This document shows, piece by piece, positions 27,508 through 62,496 of a stretch of 64,000 nucleotides of DNA (its first letter is position 1; every line of letters begins with the position of its first letter). Location: the NCBI RefSeq assembly GCF_017313785.1, contig NZ_JAFLNL010000001.1, positions 62,001 to 126,000 of the forward strand, in the 5' to 3' direction. Under the pieces are notes generated by a model. The model was not told the origin of the DNA, made no database searches, and saw only the letters and a list, made by a program, of their open reading frames with translations. Made by a program: the position numbers and the translations under genes. Source of the DNA: Flagellimonas aurea. GTDB lineage: Bacteria; Bacteroidota; Bacteroidia; Flavobacteriales; Flavobacteriaceae.

Positions 27508-30500
27508 TTAACCTACAATATTCACAATCTTTCCGGGCACTACGATTACCTTTTTAGGGGAACGACCCTGTAATTGCTCTTTTGTTTTTTCGTGGGCCAT
27601 TACAGCGGCCTCGATTTCATCCTTGCCCATATCCAACGGCAACTCCATCTTGAAGCGCATTTTTCCGTTAAAGGAAATAGGATATTCCTTGCTGCTTTCC
27701 ACCAAATACTTTTCCTCAAACTTAGGGAACGGTGCTTCGGCAATGGATTCGGAATGTCCCAAACGACTCCATAGCTCTTCGGCAATATGGGGCGCGTAAG
27801 GCGAAACCAAAATGGCCAATGGTTCCAAAATAGCTTTGCTTGTGCATTTTTGAGCGGTCAGTTCGTTGACGCAGATCATAAAGGTGGACACCGAAGTGTT
27901 GAACGAGAAGTTCTCGATATCTTCTTCTACTTTTTTGATGGTCTTGTGCAGGGTTTTTAGGTTTTCGGCGGTGGGTTCCGCTTCAGTGACGCTTCGACTA
28001 CGCTCAGCATCCGAATCGATAAAGGGAGAATAGAGCTTCCATAATTTTTTAAGGAAGGAATGTACTCCTGTGATACCTGCTGTGTTCCAAGGTTTGGACT
28101 GCTCCAAGGGACCCAAGAACATTTCGTACAAACGCAACGAATCTGCTCCATATTCCTCACAAATGGCATCGGGGTTGACGACATTGTATTTGGATTTGGA
28201 CATTTTTTCGATTTCGCGACTTACAACATAAATATCATTGTCGTCCTCAATTACTTCACCATTCTCTCCTATGAAAATTGCATCTAAATATTCAGGATTT
28301 AATTTTTTAAAAGCTTGCACATCCAATTCATCAGATGCATTTACTAAAGAAACATCAGCATGTATTGTATGTATTGGCACAATAATCTGCCATTGTTTCA
28401 AGTCAAGCTTAGATTTAACATCATCATCAAGGATATCGTAAATCCAACTCTTAATCTGTTCTTCTTTGCTTCTATCCCCAGTTGCAATACCTCTTAAAAC
28501 CTCAATAAAATGATTTCTACTAATTAAAAAAGGTTTTCTAATTGGTTGTTCAATTTCTACTGGATTGCCAAGCTCCGTAAAAAAGTAAGTGACTCTTTGA
28601 ACAAATGCACTAGTCCCCGTAATCATCCCTTGGTTAATCAACTTTTGGGCAAACTCATCTTTGGGCACATAGCCCATATCGAACATAAACTTCTGCCAAA
28701 AACGGGAATATAACAGGTGTCCCGTAGCGTGTTCGCTACCTCCTATGTATAAATCCACATCTTGCCAGTAGTTGATGGCTTCGGGAGAGAAAATAGCATC
28801 ATCATTACGCGGATCCATATACCTATTAAAGTATTGGGAACTTCCTGCCCAACCCGGCATGGTGTTCAACTCCAATGGAAAAACGGTTTTATGGTCAATC
28901 AAATCGTTGGAAACGACTTCATTTGTTTCCGCGTTCCATGCCCACTCAGTGGCGTTGCCCAATGGGGGCTCGCCCGTTTCGGTAGGGAGGTATTTTTCCA
29001 CTTCGGGCAATTGCAAGGGCAAATGCTCCAAATCGATCATTTGCGGCATCCCATCCACATAATATACGGGGAATGGCTCGCCCCAATACCGCTGACGACT
29101 AAATACGGCATCGCGCAAACGGTAATTGACTTTGCCTTCGCCATGACCTATCTTTTCCAACTCGGCAATGATTTTCTTCATGGCATCCTTATAAGATAGT
29201 CCATTCAAAAAGTCAGAATTGGCAATAATTGTACTTTCCTTGTCAGCAAATGCCTCTTCGGAAATATCGACCCCTTCAAAAATGTTGGGGATATCTATAT
29301 TGTAATGTTTGGCAAAATCATAATCACGTTGGTCGCCACAGGGTACGGCCATTACCGCTCCCGTTCCGTAACTGGCCAAAACGTAGTCGCCAATCCAAAT
29401 AGGAATGGGCTCTTTGGTGAACGGATGCTCTGCATAAGCTCCCGTAAACACTCCAGAAATGGTTTTTACATCCGCCATACGGTCACGTTCGGAACGTTTT
29501 GCCGTAGCTTCCACGTAAGCGTCCACCTCAGCTTTTTGTTCAGGTGTAGTGATTTTGTCCACCAATTCGTGTTCTGGAGCCAAGGTCATAAAGCTTACTC
29601 CGAAAATAGTATCAGGCCGGGTAGTGAAGACTTCAATCTCGTAAGGCTTCTCGACTGCGCTCGAAGTGACATCGTCATCCGAAATCACATCTTGGTCGCT
29701 TCGACTACGCTCAGCGTCCAACACATTAAAAGTAACTGATGCGCCCACTGAACGTCCAATCCAGTTGGTCTGGGAATCTTTTAGTGGCTGTGGCCAATCA
29801 ATTTTGTCCAATCCGTCCAACAAACGCTGAGCGTATGCGGTAATGCGCATACTCCATTGTGTCATTTTTTTGCGTACTACGGGATGACCTCCACGTTCGG
29901 AAACTCCGTTTACGATTTCATCATTGGCCAAAACGGTTCCCAAGGCGGGACACCAGTTCACTTCGGTATCCGCCAAATAGGTCAATCTATATTTTAAAAG
30001 AATCTCTTGCTTTTCCTTTTCTGAAAATCTATTCCAAGCGGCGGCATCAAAACTTGGGGTATCATCATCACAAGTTGCTTCGACATCGGTATTTCCTTCT
30101 TTTTCAAAAATGGAGATCAAACTGGAAATGTTTTCCGCTTTGTCCGACTTCTTGTTGTACCACGAATTGAACAATTGGATAAAAATCCATTGCGTCCATT
30201 TATAATATTGTGGGTTGGAGGTACACACTTCGCGGCTCCAATCAAAAGAAAAACCAAGCTGATCTAACTGCTCACGGTATCTGTTGATGTTGTTTTCCGT
30301 AGTGATAGCCGGATGCTGCCCTGTTTGAATCGCATATTGCTCCGCAGGCAACCCAAAGGAATCGTAGCCCATGGGATGCAACACATTGAATCCCTTATGT
30401 CTTTTGTATCGCGAATAGATGTCCGTGGCAATGTAACCTAGTGGGTGCCCTACGTGCAAGCCTGCCCCTGATGGGTAAGGGAACATCGACAATGCATAAA

Positions 30501-30597
30501 ATTTAGGTTTTTCGGAATCGTTGGATGCCTTAAACGTTTCATTTTCTGCCCAATACTTCTGCCATTTGGCCTCAATCTCGCGGAAATCGTAATTCAT
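27508..30597 (-). CDS. leuS: Leucyl-tRNA synthetase (oversized, with in-frame insertions)
   Basis: 1029 residues, longer than I expect for bacterial LeuRS. Catalytic and editing landmarks are intact: MFPYPSGAGLHVGHPLGY (HIGH motif as HVGH), FTTRPDTIFGVSF in the CP1 editing domain, YIGGSEHATGHLLYSRFW and the KMSKS loop in REIEKMSKSKYNVVNPD. Three unusual segments stand out: residues 295-317 and 864-869 are encoded by copies of a short dispersed repeat (AERSRS twice, VTSSAVEK once), and about 670-740 is an AT-rich stretch where the family usually has a short loop. All keep the frame, so the enzyme is probably active. Divergent from ftsX, own promoter. Confidence 0.96.
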   Translation of the reverse strand: MNYDFREIEAKWQKYWAENETFKASNDSEKPKFYALSMFPYPSGAGLHVGHPLGYIATDIYSRYKRHKGFNVLHPMGYDSFGLPAEQYAIQTGQHPAITTENNINRYREQLDQLGFSFDWSREVCTSNPQYYKWTQWIFIQLFNSWYNKKSDKAENISSLISIFEKEGNTDVEATCDDDTPSFDAAAWNRFSEKEKQEILLKYRLTYLADTEVNWCPALGTVLANDEIVNGVSERGGHPVVRKKMTQWSMRITAYAQRLLDGLDKIDWPQPLKDSQTNWIGRSVGASVTFNVLDAERSRSDQDVISDDDVTSSAVEKPYEIEVFTTRPDTIFGVSFMTLAPEHELVDKITTPEQKAEVDAYVEATAKRSERDRMADVKTISGVFTGAYAEHPFTKEPIPIWIGDYVLASYGTGAVMAVPCGDQRDYDFAKHYNIDIPNIFEGVDISEEAFADKESTIIANSDFLNGLSYKDAMKKIIAELEKIGHGEGKVNYRLRDAVFSRQRYWGEPFPVYYVDGMPQMIDLEHLPLQLPEVEKYLPTETGEPPLGNATEWAWNAETNEVVSNDLIDHKTVFPLELNTMPGWAGSSQYFNRYMDPRNDDAIFSPEAINYWQDVDLYIGGSEHATGHLLYSRFWQKFMFDMGYVPKDEFAQKLINQGMITGTSAFVQRVTYFFTELGNPVEIEQPIRKPFLISRNHFIEVLRGIATGDRSKEEQIKSWIYDILDDDVKSKLDLKQWQIIVPIHTIHADVSLVNASDELDVQAFKKLNPEYLDAIFIGENGEVIEDDNDIYVVSREIEKMSKSKYNVVNPDAICEEYGADSLRLYEMFLGPLEQSKPWNTAGITGVHSFLKKLWKLYSPFIDSDAERSRSVTEAEPTAENLKTLHKTIKKVEEDIENFSFNTSVSTFMICVNELTAQKCTSKAILEPLAILVSPYAPHIAEELWSRLGHSESIAEAPFPKFEEKYLVESSKEYPISFNGKMRFKMELPLDMGKDEIEAAVMAHEKTKEQLQGRSPKKVIVVPGKIVNIVG
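27991..28008 (-). repeat. Dispersed short repeat inside leuS (copy 1)
   Basis: GCTTCGACTACGCTCAGC, identical base for base to 29698-29715 and read in the same frame as AERSRS (leuS residues 864-869). The motif resembles the short semi-palindromic TTCGAGCGnAGTCGA elements I know as dispersed repeats in flavobacterial genomes. Confidence 0.75.
28375..28590 (-). other. AT-rich in-frame insertion in leuS
   Basis: About 72 codons (residues ~670-740) between the conserved SAFVQRV and HADVSLVN segments, encoding polar, Ile/Lys/Asp-rich sequence (IEVLRGIATGDRSKEEQIKS, DDDVKSKLDLKQWQ). AT richness extends over about 28240-28620: the line 28321-28380 has 20 G/C in 60, against 31 in 60 at 29461-29520. 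From memory, related enzymes have roughly 20 residues here. It may fold as an extra helical module. Confidence 0.6.
29647..29715 (-). repeat. Dispersed short repeats inside leuS (copies 2 and 3, tandem)
   Basis: Two neighbouring elements: 29698-29715 (identical to the copy at 27991) and 29647-29670, a related semi-palindrome containing TTCTCGACTGCGCTCGAA. Together they encode leuS residues 295-317, inserted just before the TTRPDT motif of the editing domain, in frame. Confidence 0.75.
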
Positions 30598-34822: not shown

Positions 34823-36238
34823 TTACAATGTTTTTGGGTTTATGGCCAAACTCTTGAACAGCATGGCCTTGGTATAGAAAAATTTGTTCTGCATCTCGTT
34901 CTGCTTTAGGTAAGCATCGATGAGCTTGCTCTCACGTGAATTGATCAAAAACAAGGAACTCTCTCCAAAACTGAATTTTCGTTCCTCGGCTTGCAACATA
35001 GTTGTATAGTCTTTAACAATGTCGGATATCAACTGGTTTTGTTGCGTAAAGGAATCCAGTTCGTTATAAATAGCAATCACCTTGTTCTGAATTTCGACTT
35101 GTGCGTTGTCCCTTTCGTACTCTGCGTCCCTCAACTTAAACTTGGCCAATTTTAGATCTCCGCGTTCTTTTCTAAGAAAAATTGGCATCTGAAAACTCAA
35201 TCCGGCCTTATAATTTTCGGTCACAAAAGAATCGATAAACTCAGGGGTCTCAGTGATAAAATTATATTCAGCCTGTAACTTTGGAAGCAATTTATTGGCC
35301 TTCAATCTTTTATCAACTGCCAGCCCTTCTATTTTATAGTCCAAGGACAATAGTTTTGGATGTGTTTCCAGATTAAAGCTGTCCAACGGTATACCATCTA
35401 TCTCCAAGGTTGAATTGATATCTATTTCGGGCTCCAGATTAGGGGCTATGCCAGGTTGAAGTTCAACGGGAACATCTTCGATCCATAAAAAATTACTGAG
35501 CTCCAATGATTTTTTCATGAGGTTGACCTTTGCTTGCTGATATCCCAAATCACGGTTTCGGACGGCAATTTTGGCCTCTACGGTATCGATCATGGCAATA
35601 TCGCCTGCCAGGGCACTCTCTTTTATCCCTTGAAAACGTATCTCTGCATTCTCTAAAAAATCTTTGTATACCTCAGCATCTCTGTAGGATTTCAACCAAT
35701 CAAAATAAGCCAAGGATGCATTGTACAGCACTTGGTTGACCTGCAGGTCTTGGTCGGCTTTGGTCTGCTCCCTAAAAAGCTTTGCCTTTCTTAGGGTAGC
35801 CATACGCTCGTTGATCCAAAACCCCTGCAAAACGGACATGGACACCCCGGCACTGTACAGACCATCATCAGGCAAGGTTTCATCAGGATTGAGGTAGTAT
35901 CCTTCATTTTGCTGAAAATTTCCTTTGAGCTCTATCCCAAACCAGGTAGGTATCTTAAAGGTGGCATTCAAGCGGTCCCAGTATTCGGTATCCTTGAACT
36001 CCTTGGTATTGTAATCCACTTCGACCTTGGGATCAAACCCTCCTCTGGCCTTCATCAAATTGGCCTGCCCTATGGCAATGTTCAATTGGGCCTGCTTGGC
36101 TACGGGATGGTATTTTTTTACATAGCCCAAATACTCTTTAAATCCCAGCACCAAAGAATCTTGCTGAGCGTAAAAAGAACCTACAGTAAAGAAAAAGAGG
36201 GTACAAGATAAAAGTAATCTTCTATTTCTTTGCGGCAT
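34823..36238 (-). CDS. TolC-family outer-membrane channel
   Basis: 471 residues with a signal peptide (LLLSCTLFFFTVGSFYA) after the ATG at 36238; an ATG 15 codons upstream is inside HlyD and less likely. Long helical repeats and AxxNLxKARGGFDPK-type segments (QLNIAIGQANLMKARGGFDP) are typical of outer-membrane efflux proteins. Last gene of the TetR-ABC-HlyD-TolC operon; its start overlaps the HlyD gene by 17 bases. It would form the exit duct of a tripartite exporter. Confidence 0.9.
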   Translation of the reverse strand: MPQRNRRLLLSCTLFFFTVGSFYAQQDSLVLGFKEYLGYVKKYHPVAKQAQLNIAIGQANLMKARGGFDPKVEVDYNTKEFKDTEYWDRLNATFKIPTWFGIELKGNFQQNEGYYLNPDETLPDDGLYSAGVSMSVLQGFWINERMATLRKAKLFREQTKADQDLQVNQVLYNASLAYFDWLKSYRDAEVYKDFLENAEIRFQGIKESALAGDIAMIDTVEAKIAVRNRDLGYQQAKVNLMKKSLELSNFLWIEDVPVELQPGIAPNLEPEIDINSTLEIDGIPLDSFNLETHPKLLSLDYKIEGLAVDKRLKANKLLPKLQAEYNFITETPEFIDSFVTENYKAGLSFQMPIFLRKERGDLKLAKFKLRDAEYERDNAQVEIQNKVIAIYNELDSFTQQNQLISDIVKDYTTMLQAEERKFSFGESSLFLINSRESKLIDAYLKQNEMQNKFFYTKAMLFKSLAINPKTL

Positions 36239-37577
36239 CTGCACTTGTGTTTTGAGGTTGATAATAATTTGGCGGGAAGCCATTCAACTGCCTCCACAAT
36301 TCAAACCAGATCGGAACATCTTCCAATAGGGCCATGGTACTTGCTCCTGAGCCTACCCGAATATCCTTGGGCCAGGGAGCTTCTTCCTCGTCCGGAGCCA
36401 ACAGTATACGATATTTTCCATTGGGACTGATAAAGTTCTCGATAGCGACCACTTTCCCCCCAAAGGTACCGTAGGAAACATTGGGCCAGCCGCTGAATAC
36501 TATGGCGGGCCAACCATCAAATTGGATACGTACCTTTTCGTCCACATGGATCAATGGAAGATCTATCGGGTCCACAAAAGTTTCCACGGCTATATCATAA
36601 TCCGAGGGCATGATGCCTACCAATTGGGCTCCTTCCTTAAAAGTTTCCCCAATTCCAGATTGGATGGCCTTGGTGATATACCCGTTTTGCGGAGCTTTGA
36701 TATAGAGCATATCATTACGTATTTCGTAATTTGTATATTGGTTTTCCAACTTGGTGACCTGTGCTTCGGAGTCGAATTGATTGGATTGTGCCGTATATAG
36801 ATCACTCTGTGCCTTCGAAATTTTATCGGTGTACTCTGCCCGAACCCGATTGATTTCCACTTGGGCATTGATCACATCATTTTTACTGGCCAACAATTTA
36901 TTTTCTTGGCTGATGAGCTTTGCCTGTGTCTCTTGTAATTTTAATCGCTTTTCTTCTAGATCGGTAACGGCCTTTAACCCCTCATCCTGCAGTTTTTCAA
37001 CTCGGTCATACTGTCTTTGGGCAATCGAAATGTTGGTCTTGGCCGCTTCCAGGTCTATACTATCGCTCTTTACCTTTAGTTTTGACTGCATCAACTTGTT
37101 CCTGGCCTGCTCCAGTTTTAAACCGAGCTCTTGGTTCAATGCCCTTATCTGCTGGTTTAAGGCTTTCCCCTTTTCTTGATAAGAAGTCACGGACATGTTC
37201 TTTGCCATGATCTGTTTACCTGTGCGCTCCACCAGATTTGGGTCAAAATATTCGCTCTTCACCTCGGAAATATGCAAAATAGTATCTCCCTTTTCCACAT
37301 ATTGACCTTCTCTTACAAACCATTTTTCAATCCGTCCGGGTATTGGCGACTGGATTGTTTGTGGTCTTTGATCCGGAGTCAAAGTGGTAAGGTACCCTCG
37401 GCCAGATATGTTCTGGGTCCATGGCAAAAACATCATAAAGACAACAATAATAGAAAAGGATGCCAGGAAGCGGTTAAACTGCTTGTAGTGCCTCTTATGG
37501 AACACTTTTTTACCTGCCTCGTAGCCGGTAAGGTCCACCTTTTCGTTCAGTTTATTATTTGAAGAAATATTCAGCAT
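36222..37577 (-). CDS. HlyD-type periplasmic adaptor
   Basis: 451 residues: cytoplasmic start, one membrane helix (FLASFSIIVVFMMFLPW, about 38-54), a biotinyl-lipoyl-like half motif (IQSPIPGRIEKWFVREGQYVEKGDTIL), a long coiled coil (about 110-270), then the second lipoyl half (IKAPQNGYITKAI) and beta-barrel domain. It links the inner-membrane ABC protein (stop five bases upstream) to the TolC channel. Confidence 0.92.
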   Translation of the reverse strand: MLNISSNNKLNEKVDLTGYEAGKKVFHKRHYKQFNRFLASFSIIVVFMMFLPWTQNISGRGYLTTLTPDQRPQTIQSPIPGRIEKWFVREGQYVEKGDTILHISEVKSEYFDPNLVERTGKQIMAKNMSVTSYQEKGKALNQQIRALNQELGLKLEQARNKLMQSKLKVKSDSIDLEAAKTNISIAQRQYDRVEKLQDEGLKAVTDLEEKRLKLQETQAKLISQENKLLASKNDVINAQVEINRVRAEYTDKISKAQSDLYTAQSNQFDSEAQVTKLENQYTNYEIRNDMLYIKAPQNGYITKAIQSGIGETFKEGAQLVGIMPSDYDIAVETFVDPIDLPLIHVDEKVRIQFDGWPAIVFSGWPNVSYGTFGGKVVAIENFISPNGKYRILLAPDEEEAPWPKDIRVGSGASTMALLEDVPIWFELWRQLNGFPPNYYQPQNTSADAAKK

Positions 37578-37582
37578 GAACT

Positions 37583-39253
37583 TTAATTTACGTTGATCAA
37601 TCTACCTTTTTCCATACGGATTACCTGATTACAGCGTTTTGCCCATTTGGGATTCTCGCTAACAACGACCAAAGCCCATCCGTTGGCAGGATCCGTTAAG
37701 AAATCCATCATTCTTTCTGTTTCTTCCTCATCATATTGTTCCAATGGATCCTTGAGCACCATTAATTTGGGGCGGGTTACTATGCTTCGGGCCAGAACAA
37801 TTTTTCTGGAGATAAAATCGGGGAATTTTTTTCCTTCAGGATACAGAATGGTTTTTAACCCCTGCGGCTGCTCTTTCACAAATTCTGAAAGACTTACTTT
37901 TTCCAAGGCCCAATACACATCTTCCATGGAGATGTCCTTGTTACCAAAGGTAATATTGTCCAATAAGGTTCCCTCAAAGGGGTATTCTTCCGTCAACGAA
38001 TGACCAAGATATGATCTATACTGGCTCAATTTAATTCCTTTAAGCGCTACATTGTTCACATATATCTTACCTTCATCCGGTTCTAGAATACCGGCAATCA
38101 TTCTTAATAACGTTGACCTTCCCGACCCACTCTTTCCTTGTATCAATAACTTTGTTTCTGGCTTTATAGTGAGTGATAAGTGGTCTATTATTTTCTTATC
38201 CAATCCAGGCACTTTGTACACGATATCTTCCAGCTCCACCGTTAATCCCTCATTTTCCTTGAACGGGGTTTCCCCATCTTGTGGTTCCAATTCCTTATCC
38301 ACGACCTGTCCCATTTTTTCCAAAGAAGTCAATAGGTCATAAAATGTTTCGAGACCCAAAATCAATTTTTCCACAGAACTGATAACCAACAGAATAATGA
38401 TTTCCGCCGCCACGAACTGACCAATGTTCATCTGCTGTTCCAGTACCAAGAGGCCCCCGATCAAAAGCAACCCTGCGGTAACCAAAACCTTGAAACCAAT
38501 CATCTGGATGAATTGCAATACCAACACTCTAAAGTGACTTTCCCTTGCGTCCAAATAGTCATCTACCAAAGTGTCGTTCTTTTCAAGGGCATGGGAGGTC
38601 TTCCCAGAAAGTTTAAAACTGATAATGGAACGGGCGATTTCTTGAACCCAATGGGCTACTTTGTATTTGATCTTGGATTCTTCCAAACTGGTGTCCAAGC
38701 CCCTTTGTGCAGTAAATTTGAACACAATATAAATGAGGACCAGCAATAACAACCCATAAATTATGAAGAAAGGGTGATAAAACGACAGCAACAATAACCC
38801 GAAAACTATCTGTAGCAGGGCTGCCGGGAAATCTATCAATATTTTGGATAGAGATTTTTGTACGGTAAGAGTATCAAAAAAACGATTGGCAAGCTCCGGA
38901 GGATAATAATACCTAAGCTCACTCATCTTGATTTTTGGAAAGCGGTAGGCGAACTCAAACGATGATCTGGTGAAAATCTTTTGCTGCAAGTTCTCTATGA
39001 TACGTATCTGCATCAACTGCAAAACCCCAACAAAGGCCACCCCCATGGTAACAAGTACAACCAACACTATCCAAGAGGTACTCACCCTTGCCCCTTGAAT
39101 CAGGTTAATAATGGCCTGTATTCCCAACGGCAGGGAAAGATTGACCAGTCCCGCAAAAATGGCGTAGTAAAAAATTTGAAGAATATCCTTTTTGTCCAAG
39201 GAAAGCAAACCGGTTAGCCGCTGCCAGGCAGAGAGTATTTTTTTATTGGCCAT
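37583..39253 (-). CDS. ABC exporter-type protein with degenerate ATPase motifs
   Basis: 556 residues: an N-terminal six-helix exporter domain (about 20-320) and a C-terminal nucleotide-binding domain (about 330-556). The key ATPase residues are replaced: Walker A is GKSGSGRST (Arg for the phosphate-binding Lys), the Q-loop region reads LGHSLTEEYPFEG, no LSGGQ signature is present (FPDFISRKIVLARSI instead), Walker B plus Glu is LMVLKDPLE (Lys for Asp, Asp for Glu) and the switch His is Glu in VVVSENPKW. It is thus unlikely to hydrolyse ATP normally. It sits in an operon with HlyD and TolC, so it may be a structural or regulatory partner, or use another energy source. Confidence 0.85.
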   Translation of the reverse strand: MANKKILSAWQRLTGLLSLDKKDILQIFYYAIFAGLVNLSLPLGIQAIINLIQGARVSTSWIVLVVLVTMGVAFVGVLQLMQIRIIENLQQKIFTRSSFEFAYRFPKIKMSELRYYYPPELANRFFDTLTVQKSLSKILIDFPAALLQIVFGLLLLSFYHPFFIIYGLLLLVLIYIVFKFTAQRGLDTSLEESKIKYKVAHWVQEIARSIISFKLSGKTSHALEKNDTLVDDYLDARESHFRVLVLQFIQMIGFKVLVTAGLLLIGGLLVLEQQMNIGQFVAAEIIILLVISSVEKLILGLETFYDLLTSLEKMGQVVDKELEPQDGETPFKENEGLTVELEDIVYKVPGLDKKIIDHLSLTIKPETKLLIQGKSGSGRSTLLRMIAGILEPDEGKIYVNNVALKGIKLSQYRSYLGHSLTEEYPFEGTLLDNITFGNKDISMEDVYWALEKVSLSEFVKEQPQGLKTILYPEGKKFPDFISRKIVLARSIVTRPKLMVLKDPLEQYDEEETERMMDFLTDPANGWALVVVSENPKWAKRCNQVIRMEKGRLINVN

Positions 39254-39932
39254 GTACTTTTTGATTTAGTGTGCGGAATATCAAATCCGTGAAAAATGCG
39301 GTAGGGGTTACCTCTTCACTACAGTTTGTGAGGGATGGAAAGTGCGATTTTAAAAAATTCTGGTGTAACGAACCTTCAAGCACATTACTGGCCAGACTGG
39401 TCGGAAATTCATAATCCCCGTCCACATCAGAAATCATTTTGCTAAGACGACCCACCAACCTTTTGCATATAATAAAGCTCCCTTCCGCCCCATCATTGCT
39501 CATTTCTTTCACAAGATAAGACTTTGAATACTCGTTAATGATTATCTTGTTGAGCACTACTTCGTTAATGTGCGAAAAGGAGGAGTCCTCCTCTACGGTC
39601 TGTGTCAACACTTCAATGGAAGCCGCCAATTTTTCCACTGGGTCGGAAATTGCATTGGTAGAAAAAACCATCTTGTACTCTACCCATCCCCAATACCAAG
39701 AAGCCAGATAAAGCAATAGCTTGTGCTTGTTCTCAAAATATCGGTAAATCGAACTTTCGTTTGAGTGTATTCTAACTCCCAATTTCTTAAATGTAAAGGA
39801 TTCAAAACCAATTTCATCGATCAACAATATACTCTGCTCCACGATTTTCTTCCCCAAATCTGACGATTCAGGGTCTTTAACATAGAGTTTCTCATCGATT
39901 TCCAGTTTCACAGATTGTAGTAAAATGTCCAT
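39243..39932 (-). CDS. TetR/AcrR-family regulator of the export operon
   Basis: 229 residues. N-terminal TetR helix-turn-helix at about 28-75 (GKKIVEQSILLIDEIGFESF, TFKKLGVRIHSNESSIYRYF, ENKHKLLLYL), then a ligand-type helical domain with no recognisable ligand signature. First gene of the operon: its stop overlaps the ABC gene start by 11 bases. It likely represses its own operon, though no operator dyad is obvious. Confidence 0.9.
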   Translation of the reverse strand: MDILLQSVKLEIDEKLYVKDPESSDLGKKIVEQSILLIDEIGFESFTFKKLGVRIHSNESSIYRYFENKHKLLLYLASWYWGWVEYKMVFSTNAISDPVEKLAASIEVLTQTVEEDSSFSHINEVVLNKIIINEYSKSYLVKEMSNDGAEGSFIICKRLVGRLSKMISDVDGDYEFPTSLASNVLEGSLHQNFLKSHFPSLTNCSEEVTPTAFFTDLIFRTLNQKVHGQ

Positions 39933-61383: not shown

Positions 61384-62496
61384 ATGAACGACCATTGGTA
61401 CGACATTAAAAATATTGAAACGGTTGATTCTCCATCCATCGCTCTATACCTGGAACATCTCAAGTTCAACATTGAGGAGATGGTCTCGATGGTACATGGG
61501 CAAACGGATAGGTTGATGCCGCACATCAAGACCAACAAAATGCCTCGGGTCATGAAGCTTTTACTGGAGTCGGGAATCTCAAAATTCAAGGCTTCCACTA
61601 TCTCTGAAGCTGAAATCGCGGCCGAGGCGGGGGCCACTGCTGTTCTTATTGCGCACCAGTTGGTGGGACCAAAGTTGGACCGCTTTTTACAATTGATAAA
61701 ACACTACCCAAATACGGCGTTTTCAACTTTAGTGGACAACGTGGACAGTGCGGAACTTTTGAACCAAAAAGCCGAGGAAACAGAACTCAATGCCAACATT
61801 TATATTGATATCAACAATGGAATGGACCGGTCCGGAATCCAAATTGGTCCGGGGCTGGACGAGCTCATCAACTATTTGAAAATATGCAAATCGCTCAACT
61901 TTAAAGGGCTGCACGCGTACGATGGCCACCTAAGGGATTCCGATTTTGAGGTGCGCAACCAAAAGATAGAACAAGGGGTGATGGATGTAGTGGTTTATTT
62001 TGATACGCTAAGGATAGATTACCCCCAAGCTCAATTGATATGTGGTGGAACCCCATCGTTCACATCTCATTTGCTCCAAGAAAACAGAATCACCAGCCCT
62101 GGCACCTGTGTGCTTTGGGATTGGGGATATGGTGAAAAATTGACAGAACAAAATTTCAAACATGCCGCACTATTGGTTACACGAATCATTTCCAAACCCA
62201 CCGAAGGGATTATAACCATAGATTTGGGACATAAATCGGTAGCGGCCGAAAATCCTATTGACAAGCGCGTTAAGTTCCTGAACATTGATGACTATGAACT
62301 GCTTTCACAAAGTGAGGAACACGGGGTAATCAAAGTAAAGGATTGGGACAAATACAAAGTCGGTGACGTGCTCTATGGCATTCCGTATCATATTTGCCCC
62401 AGTATCAATCTTCATGATGAAGTTTCGGTTATCGAGAACGGCAAAAAAGTGGATACTTGGGAAATTACCGCCCGAAAACGAAAACTAAGGTTTTAA
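61384..62496 (+). CDS. D-threonine aldolase-type PLP enzyme
   Basis: 370 residues, fold-type III PLP enzyme like D-threonine aldolase and D-serine dehydratase. The PLP lysine lies in MPHIKTNKMPRVM; GMDRSGI, GLHAYDGHL and the metal-binding C-terminal segment GIPYHICPSINLHDE are diagnostic. It would cleave D-threonine or D-allothreonine to glycine and acetaldehyde, or a related beta-hydroxy D-amino acid. Start ATG 61384; a TTG seven codons earlier is less likely. The 3' end overlaps the convergent phytase by 12 bases. Confidence 0.9.
   Translation: MNDHWYDIKNIETVDSPSIALYLEHLKFNIEEMVSMVHGQTDRLMPHIKTNKMPRVMKLLLESGISKFKASTISEAEIAAEAGATAVLIAHQLVGPKLDRFLQLIKHYPNTAFSTLVDNVDSAELLNQKAEETELNANIYIDINNGMDRSGIQIGPGLDELINYLKICKSLNFKGLHAYDGHLRDSDFEVRNQKIEQGVMDVVVYFDTLRIDYPQAQLICGGTPSFTSHLLQENRITSPGTCVLWDWGYGEKLTEQNFKHAALLVTRIISKPTEGIITIDLGHKSVAAENPIDKRVKFLNIDDYELLSQSEEHGVIKVKDWDKYKVGDVLYGIPYHICPSINLHDEVSVIENGKKVDTWEITARKRKLRF

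Follow-up and report, generated by a model that had tools for sequence, protein, structure and literature searches.

Clade-wide degeneration and repeated loss of the ATPase domain in an ABC-derived tripartite exporter of Bacteroidota, a candidate for proton-driven export

What energises an ABC-type exporter whose ATPase domain has lost its catalytic residues, when the genes for a complete HlyD-TolC duct remain beside it? The question is raised by a 556-aa protein of Flagellimonas aurea, encoded in the stretch of 64,000 nucleotides analysed here (positions 62,001 to 126,000 of contig NZ_JAFLNL010000001.1; hereafter, the window).

The operon and the ATPase motifs of the window protein

The transporter gene belongs to an operon in the order TetR, transporter, HlyD, TolC/OEP, in which neighbouring genes overlap or are 5 bases apart and all are read from the minus strand. 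The features considered below are (window positions, with motif positions assigned by alignment):

39243..39932, minus strand: TetR-type regulator, first gene of the operon, overlapping the transporter start
37583..39253, minus strand: pseudo-ATPase ABC-type exporter, 556 aa, an intact ORF with an ATG start
38279..39253, minus strand: six-helix membrane domain, about residues 1–325, the part also retained by ATPase-free relatives
38489..38491, minus strand: Lys255 in helix 5, Lys/Arg in 204 full-length, 9 membrane-only, 8 fused and 16 outgroup proteins
38366..38404, minus strand: helix 6 segment with the nearly invariant Glu284, Glu295 and Lys296, candidate charge-relay residues with a putative function
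37586..38251, minus strand: degenerate ATPase domain, about residues 335–556, with a predicted fold and under purifying selection
38210..38212, minus strand: A-loop position, Val348 in place of the aromatic residue
38117..38119, minus strand: Walker A Lys replaced by Arg379 (K379R), sequence GKSGSGRST
37991..37993, minus strand: Q-loop Gln replaced by Thr421
37811..37825, minus strand: signature LSGGQ replaced by FPDFI (residues 477–481)
37748..37753, minus strand: Walker B Asp replaced by Lys501 (LMVLKD) and catalytic Glu by Asp502
37655..37657, minus strand: switch His replaced by Glu533
36222..37577, minus strand: HlyD-type periplasmic adaptor, 451 aa, directly downstream of the transporter
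34823..36283, minus strand: TolC-type outer-membrane efflux protein (OEP), overlapping the adaptor gene

Pfam assignments and gene coordinates bore out the original prediction that HlyD, TolC and TetR are retained around the transporter. The window protein scored 57.2 bits against ABC_tran (cut-off 25) and 36 bits against ABC_membrane (PF00664; cut-off 28), and thus carries the membrane domain that defines exporters of the tripartite kind. Several of its top NCBIfam profiles were also of the type I secretion/tripartite exporter kind, and among the best 25 of 158 matched models no exporter cut-off was nearly reached, the best scores being 172.6 bits against a cut-off of 853.3 (TIGR03796) and 165.9 against 693.1 (TIGR03375). 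The nearest named relatives, Allomuricauda abyssi and A. chongwuensis, encode a transporter that is 99% identical.

Motif columns were fixed by aligning the protein to five ordinary exporters that its genome also encodes. This alignment confirmed that the Walker A Lys, Walker B Asp, catalytic Glu, signature and switch His are all gone, as had been claimed, and revealed two further losses, of the Q-loop Gln (T421) and of the A-loop aromatic (V348); the D-loop Asp508 was retained. The Gln of an LGQS motif in relatives was considered as the Q-loop Gln and rejected, the true column lying three residues further on in the same alignment. The protein therefore does not possess the catalytically competent ATPase motifs of a tripartite exporter.

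An AlphaFold model of the window protein (mean pLDDT 67.9, pTM 0.45) predicted six long helices and, with better scores, an ATPase fold, in which the means of 10-residue blocks ranged from 60 to 90 and mostly from 75 to 90. Because confidence in the membrane domain was only moderate, the membrane depth of individual residues is approximate. The nearest structures returned by Foldseek included PCAT1, TM287/288, TmrAB and PrtD.

Elsewhere in the window, the repeat CTTCGACTACGCTCAG occurs in two copies (27992-28007 and 29699-29714) inside the minus-strand ORF 27508-30597, which we take to encode leucyl-tRNA synthetase, apparently an essential enzyme. No such repeat arose in 100 shuffles at one mismatch or fewer; both copies keep the reading frame and add short '..ERSRS..' peptides.

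Degeneration across the clade and loss of the ATPase domain

The transporter proved widespread, with matches at E ≤ 1e-60 in 177/299 genomes sampled from the same family, a match in 76/296 genomes of the phylum sample and, for the membrane-domain profile at E ≤ 1e-50, in 194/395 genomes of the class sample; sampling was even rather than exhaustive, and the trees used below are quick searches. The main clade was represented by 208 full-length sequences; 204 of these, the window protein among them, are distinct. Rows clipped by locus ends (L089, L120, L128, L136 and L221), nine membrane-only rows and 16 outgroup rows were excluded from the motif counts, and the fusions described below as well as fragments and divergent members that turned up later (L256-L262, L268 and L280-L283) are not among the 204. 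Leaving aside the named close relatives, the main-clade genomes carry the code of the window's class, with four exceptions: L167, L175, L180 and L183 are coded only as the same phylum, yet fall inside the main clade.

Nearly every member of this clade lacks the catalytic residues. Counted as sequences rather than as independent events, the Walker B Asp was present in 16/204, the catalytic Glu in 17/204, both together in two, the switch His in three and the Q-loop Gln in seven, and every member retained at most three of the five signature residues. The original prediction had held that relatives with intact motifs at the same locus would reduce the case to a single decayed gene; the main-clade relatives proved degenerate as well, none of the 204 combining Asp, Glu and His. 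Four of the five losses first listed (Asp, Glu, signature and His) thus extend across the clade, whereas that of the Walker A Lys is local, since Lys persists in 173/204, with Arg in 24 and other residues in seven; Arg occupied this position in 19 of the 109 close rows. With the exception of the Walker A change, the losses are not attributable to chance, because most are common to relatives. The replacement residues were themselves conserved in the close rows, with Lys at the Asp position in 101 and Asp at the Glu position in 103 of 109. The P-loop was lost at further loci (for example L134/L135, L139, L199/L224 and L280/L281).

Asp/Glu at Walker B, and in most cases His at the switch, were retained only in the more distant outgroup (n=16, coded as other classes of the phylum), with the Walker A Lys in 16/16, Asp in 16, Glu in 16 and His in 14. 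Even there the Q-loop Gln was found in 0/16 and the signature was partial (1 to 4 of 5 residues), so that degeneration seems to predate the main clade and to have gone deeper inside it.

The persistence of the Walker A Lys in 173/204 means that some nucleotide role may persist, and it bears on the reading that most relatives bind ATP without hydrolysing it and that a gate opens on binding, with ATP as signal and not as fuel. Such a switch would also be in line with the A-loop Tyr or Phe of 68/99 distant relatives and with the predicted folding of the ATPase domain. Set against this, the window protein has its Walker A Lys, A-loop aromatic and Q-loop Gln all replaced, the A-loop Tyr or Phe is found in 0/109 close rows, other lineages have dispensed with the P-loop or the whole domain, and a switch supplies no energy. 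We consider this reading improbable.

Selection on the two halves of the protein was assessed from dN/dS, which could be computed for both domains in 9/28 pairs, the others being saturated in at least one domain; the values are rough, as synonymous sites were often near saturation. In all nine pairs the membrane domain was the more constrained (0.012-0.061, against 0.019-0.392 for the ATPase domain), and in 8/9 the ATPase domain itself gave 0.02-0.11. The highest ATPase-domain value, 0.39, came from the pair L134 and L135, where Walker A is lost. Comparison of the window protein with L042 gave 0.013 for the membrane domain and 0.019 for the ATPase domain, indicating that selection still maintains the two halves in the clade of the window. 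In identity to the window protein, the membrane domain exceeded the ATPase domain in 207/207 comparisons; the reverse, a better conserved ATPase domain, was seen in 19 of the 20 closest pairs of ordinary exporters, which share sequences and are not independent.

The operon was conserved along with the transporter. Where the flank sufficed, HlyD was the next gene at 80/80 close, 54/55 distant, 15/16 outgroup and 9/9 membrane-only loci, and TolC then followed at 77/77, 51/52, 13/15 and 9/9, respectively; TetR preceded the transporter at 104/105 close, 66/102 distant, 0/16 outgroup and 2/9 membrane-only loci. With sufficient flank, profiles matched neither HlyD nor TolC at L247 and L207 and found no TolC at L211. 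The conserved core of the system thus consists of the membrane domain and the duct genes.

These data also bear on simple decay of the gene. Faster drift of the ATPase half in 9/9 computable pairs would suit decay, as would one broken transporter copy, at L268 (genome G660), whose frame departs from the family after about residue 151 next to an intact TetR gene. Conversely, nearly all listed relatives have a frame that stays open throughout the match, with a single in-frame stop in a few; both the operon and the replacement residues are conserved; and dN/dS is low in the membrane domain in all nine pairs and in the ATPase domain in eight. With the losses common to relatives and dN/dS low, we rejected a single decayed gene, and consider decay in general very improbable.

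Two groups of relatives have no ATPase domain in the gene at all. A membrane-only form of 332-339 aa was present in nine genomes (L176-L179 and L216-L220; family codes f3, f9 and f10), where the HlyD frame overlaps the end of the transporter by 8 bases in 7/9 and starts 34 or 66 bases later in the other two. In eight further genomes (L272-L279; family codes f60, f74, f77, f85 and f86) the membrane domain and HlyD form a single-frame fusion of 744-781 aa, with TolC next in 8/8 and TetR adjoining in 7/8. Another candidate for the membrane-only form, picked out by ORF length (G796/L221), was dropped because its gene is cut by the contig end. The 17 ATPase-free cases are a minimum, as only part of the 194 class-level matches was inspected.

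In a tree rooted on the outgroup, the membrane-only and fusion forms made up one clade each, both nested in the degenerate family. A single origin of both was rejected (p-AU 0.014) on a 56-row quick tree in which long branches near the fusions were flagged. The ATPase domain has thus been lost at least twice, with the adaptor and channel genes retained. The fusion appears topologically sensible because the end of helix 6 and the start of HlyD would both lie on the cytoplasmic side.

Search for an ATPase in trans

In principle, an ATPase domain missing from the transporter gene could have moved elsewhere. A profile of the family ATPase domain found no family-like domain in the 17 ATPase-free genomes, two of the eight fusion genomes being less than 90% complete; the best matches reached 149-166 bits and all lay in exporter-sized frames of 583-668 aa. 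The same profile gave 289-334 bits in four full-length genomes whose own sequences are in the profile, and among 14 control genomes with members outside it the family domain ranked first, at 201-294 bits, in 12. The two remaining controls scored low, at 157 bits against 167 for the best ordinary exporter (G310) and, in a genome where the P-loop is lost (G341), at 98.5 against 141. The negative result therefore holds for domains of normal family likeness, and a heavily decayed one could hide. Within that scope, relocation of the domain to another gene was rejected.

Alternatively, the degenerate protein could pair with an active ABC half-transporter, or borrow a shared ATPase, encoded elsewhere. 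Other exporter genes were indeed present in 15/15 genomes scanned for ABC_membrane, and there are well-documented exporters in which one site is dead (PMC7756269). No active partner half was consistently near the transporter: in flanks of unequal length, another ABC gene appeared at 1/110 close, 4/103 distant, 1/16 outgroup and 1/9 membrane-only loci. At L206 and L236 an ordinary-looking exporter-sized ABC gene lies no more than about 3 kb away from the transporter; the remaining ABC genes in flanks are smaller, or partial (L229).

Co-occurrence was examined for exporters L002, L004, L005 and L006 of the window genome, with L003 left out. L004 and L006 did not co-vary with the system, close matches (57-84% identity; orthology assumed, with no reciprocal test) being present in 15/15 genomes that have it and in 17/17 that show no match to it; L002 and L005 did not co-vary either, with matches (63-79%) also in genomes lacking the system. 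Genome G268 contains just three other ABC_membrane genes, two of them of the universal L004/L006 kind.

Energising in trans is further opposed by the HlyD fusions, in which HlyD at the place of the ATPase would leave little room for one. In favour of a docking ATPase, which is conceivable, the membrane-only clade still has the coupling-helix motif, with E120 and R124 in 9/9 and D127 kept save for one D-to-E change. The motif is retained in the window protein as ELxNRFFD, and its residues E120/R124/D127 have drifted in the fusions. Its retention in the membrane-only clade is unexplained and is the best remaining argument for a docking partner. On balance we consider an ATPase acting in trans quite unlikely, and the suggestion in the original prediction that the exporter might be driven by another partner is disfavoured, given the lack of an adjacent partner, the lack of a co-varying exporter among those tested and the existence of lineages in whose genomes the profile picked up no family-like ATPase domain.

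Conserved charges, a candidate energy source and precedents

Within the membrane domain, a set of charged residues in or near the helices was nearly invariant. E87, E295, K296, K313, K196 and K133 were found in 204/204 main-clade members, K255 in 203/204 (Arg in the other) and E284 in 202/204 (Asp in two), and the set E87, K/R255, E284, E295 and K296 was complete in 202/204; none of 15 ordinary exporters aligned carried this set. The eight fusions all kept K255, E284, E295 and K296. In the outgroup, E284 was present in 15/16, E295 in 13/16 and K296 in 13/16. Since these charges largely occur in an outgroup with the Walker B Asp/Glu, they predate the loss of the ATPase and are not an innovation tied to it; the ancestor may already have been able to use a proton gradient, as reported for MsbA.

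Two further groups of relatives depart from the common form of the protein. L282 and L283 (f87) represent a very divergent, long-branch subfamily from genomes of 2.2-2.3 Mb, with HlyD and TolC present; these proteins, which lie outside the 204, carry K255Q, E295Q and K296D. Relatives of about 700-830 aa (L189, L190, L192, L193, L195, L200-L206, L236, L238, L239, L241, L243, L246, L247 and L251) carry a divergent extension at the N terminus, about 150-190 aa long, that the window protein lacks; an alignment of 13 in-group copies of it returned no usable match in Pfam or among PDB sequences.

The charges also help to weigh a passive or gated duct, in which the membrane domain would anchor and gate HlyD-TolC without pumping, and cargo would enter from the periplasm or the leaflet by diffusion, or the assembly would mainly bridge the membranes. 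The energy-coupling parts have been evolutionarily dispensable while the adaptor and channel genes stayed, which suits this reading, and the HlyD fusion favours a structural role. Against it, the presence of E87, E295, K296 and K313 in 204/204 exceeds what an anchor would need, and a permanently open duct would probably be costly. We regard a passive duct as unlikely.

We consider the best explanation to be a tripartite exporter of ABC descent that no longer hydrolyses ATP and would be driven by protons through the conserved charges, and give this reading, in which the energy source is inferred, a probability of about one half. Counting against it are the presence of most of the charges in the outgroup, the lack of three of them in L282 and L283, the coupling-helix motif of the membrane-only clade and the Walker A Lys of 173/204. 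The pseudo-ATPase exporter with a complete duct that was first proposed is supported, both by the clade-wide losses and by two lineages without the ATPase domain, and drive by an ion gradient, also suggested at the outset, would fit. In such a mechanism the membrane-domain dimer would undergo alternating access powered by the proton gradient, with proton coupling through Glu87, Lys255, Glu284 and Glu295/Lys296, and the complex would move its substrate outward; to judge from the TetR-controlled, efflux-like operon, the substrate could be small amphiphiles. The leftover ATPase domain may act as a folded platform for dimerisation or gating, and nucleotide binding perhaps persists in lineages with Walker A, probably not in the window's clade. 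More tentatively, the family could be a proton-driven secondary exporter made from an ABC membrane domain that feeds a HlyD-TolC duct, reached through a graded series that would run from an ATPase with Asp, Glu and His, via a clade-wide dead ATPase, to deletion of the domain and fusion with HlyD.

Among known systems, the type I secretion and other tripartite ABC exporters (HlyB-HlyD-TolC, PrtD and LapB-type) share with this family the ABC_membrane fold, HlyD and TolC in one operon. They differ from it in that here the catalytic motifs are lost and the ATPase domain is deleted in two clades, and the window protein has no N-terminal peptidase-like domain. Heterodimeric exporters (TM287/288, TmrAB, TAP and MsRv1273c/72c) resemble it in their degenerate ATPase-domain motifs and similar fold, but keep one active site by way of a partner. 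The window locus has no adjacent active partner gene and none was found elsewhere in our searches, so that a homodimer would hold two dead sites.

The nearest precedents are SbmA and the laboratory-truncated MsbA and LmrA. To our knowledge, SbmA works without HlyD or TolC. According to the available part of PMC13316013, E. coli SbmA, which has no ATPase domain, uses the proton gradient to take up peptides and is thought to descend from a YddA-like ancestor; loss of the ATPase from a full-length ancestor has been proposed there for SbmA/BacA (SLiPT), which share an ABC-type membrane domain with our family. As described in that text, SbmA works in the import direction, has two additional helices and lacks coupling helices, in contrast to the export-type tripartite operon and six predicted helices found here. 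Compared with the features that define SLiPT proteins, the window protein keeps a degenerate ATPase domain (17 relatives have none in the gene), shows six long helices in a model of moderate confidence instead of eight per protomer, and has coupling helices, as has the membrane-only clade, the motif having drifted in the HlyD fusions. Judged by conservation, E87, E284 and E295 are candidate counterparts of the SLiPT glutamate ladder.

The MsbA and LmrA membrane domains are likewise exporter membrane domains that, ATPase-free, move a drug on the proton gradient (PMC4979069, in the part available): a pH gradient drives ethidium export by MsbA minus its ATPase domain, and similar behaviour is cited there for the LmrA membrane domain. 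These are engineered truncations of active pumps, whereas here the ATPase was removed by evolution and an adaptor and a channel belong to the system. Association with HlyD or TolC is not described for SbmA or truncated MsbA in the available parts of PMC13316013 and PMC4979069. A Chem Rev review of tripartite systems assigns the transporters to the ABC, RND or MFS families, and the words 'Bacteroidetes' and 'SbmA' are absent from the portion of its text available (PMC8277102). Among the matches listed for ABC exporters that have HlyD/TolC and a degenerate, missing or partner-supplied ATPase, no open-licence PMC title or abstract describes the family, an absence that is weak evidence.

If the proton-driven reading is true, tripartite exporters would gain a mode of energisation beyond ATP hydrolysis in their ABC-derived members, and natural sequences would show a primary pump turning into a secondary one. 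The natural series of outgroup, dead ATPase, Walker A loss, membrane-only form and fusion makes proton coupling directly testable, and genes annotated as ATP-driven transporters in Bacteroidota may not use ATP.
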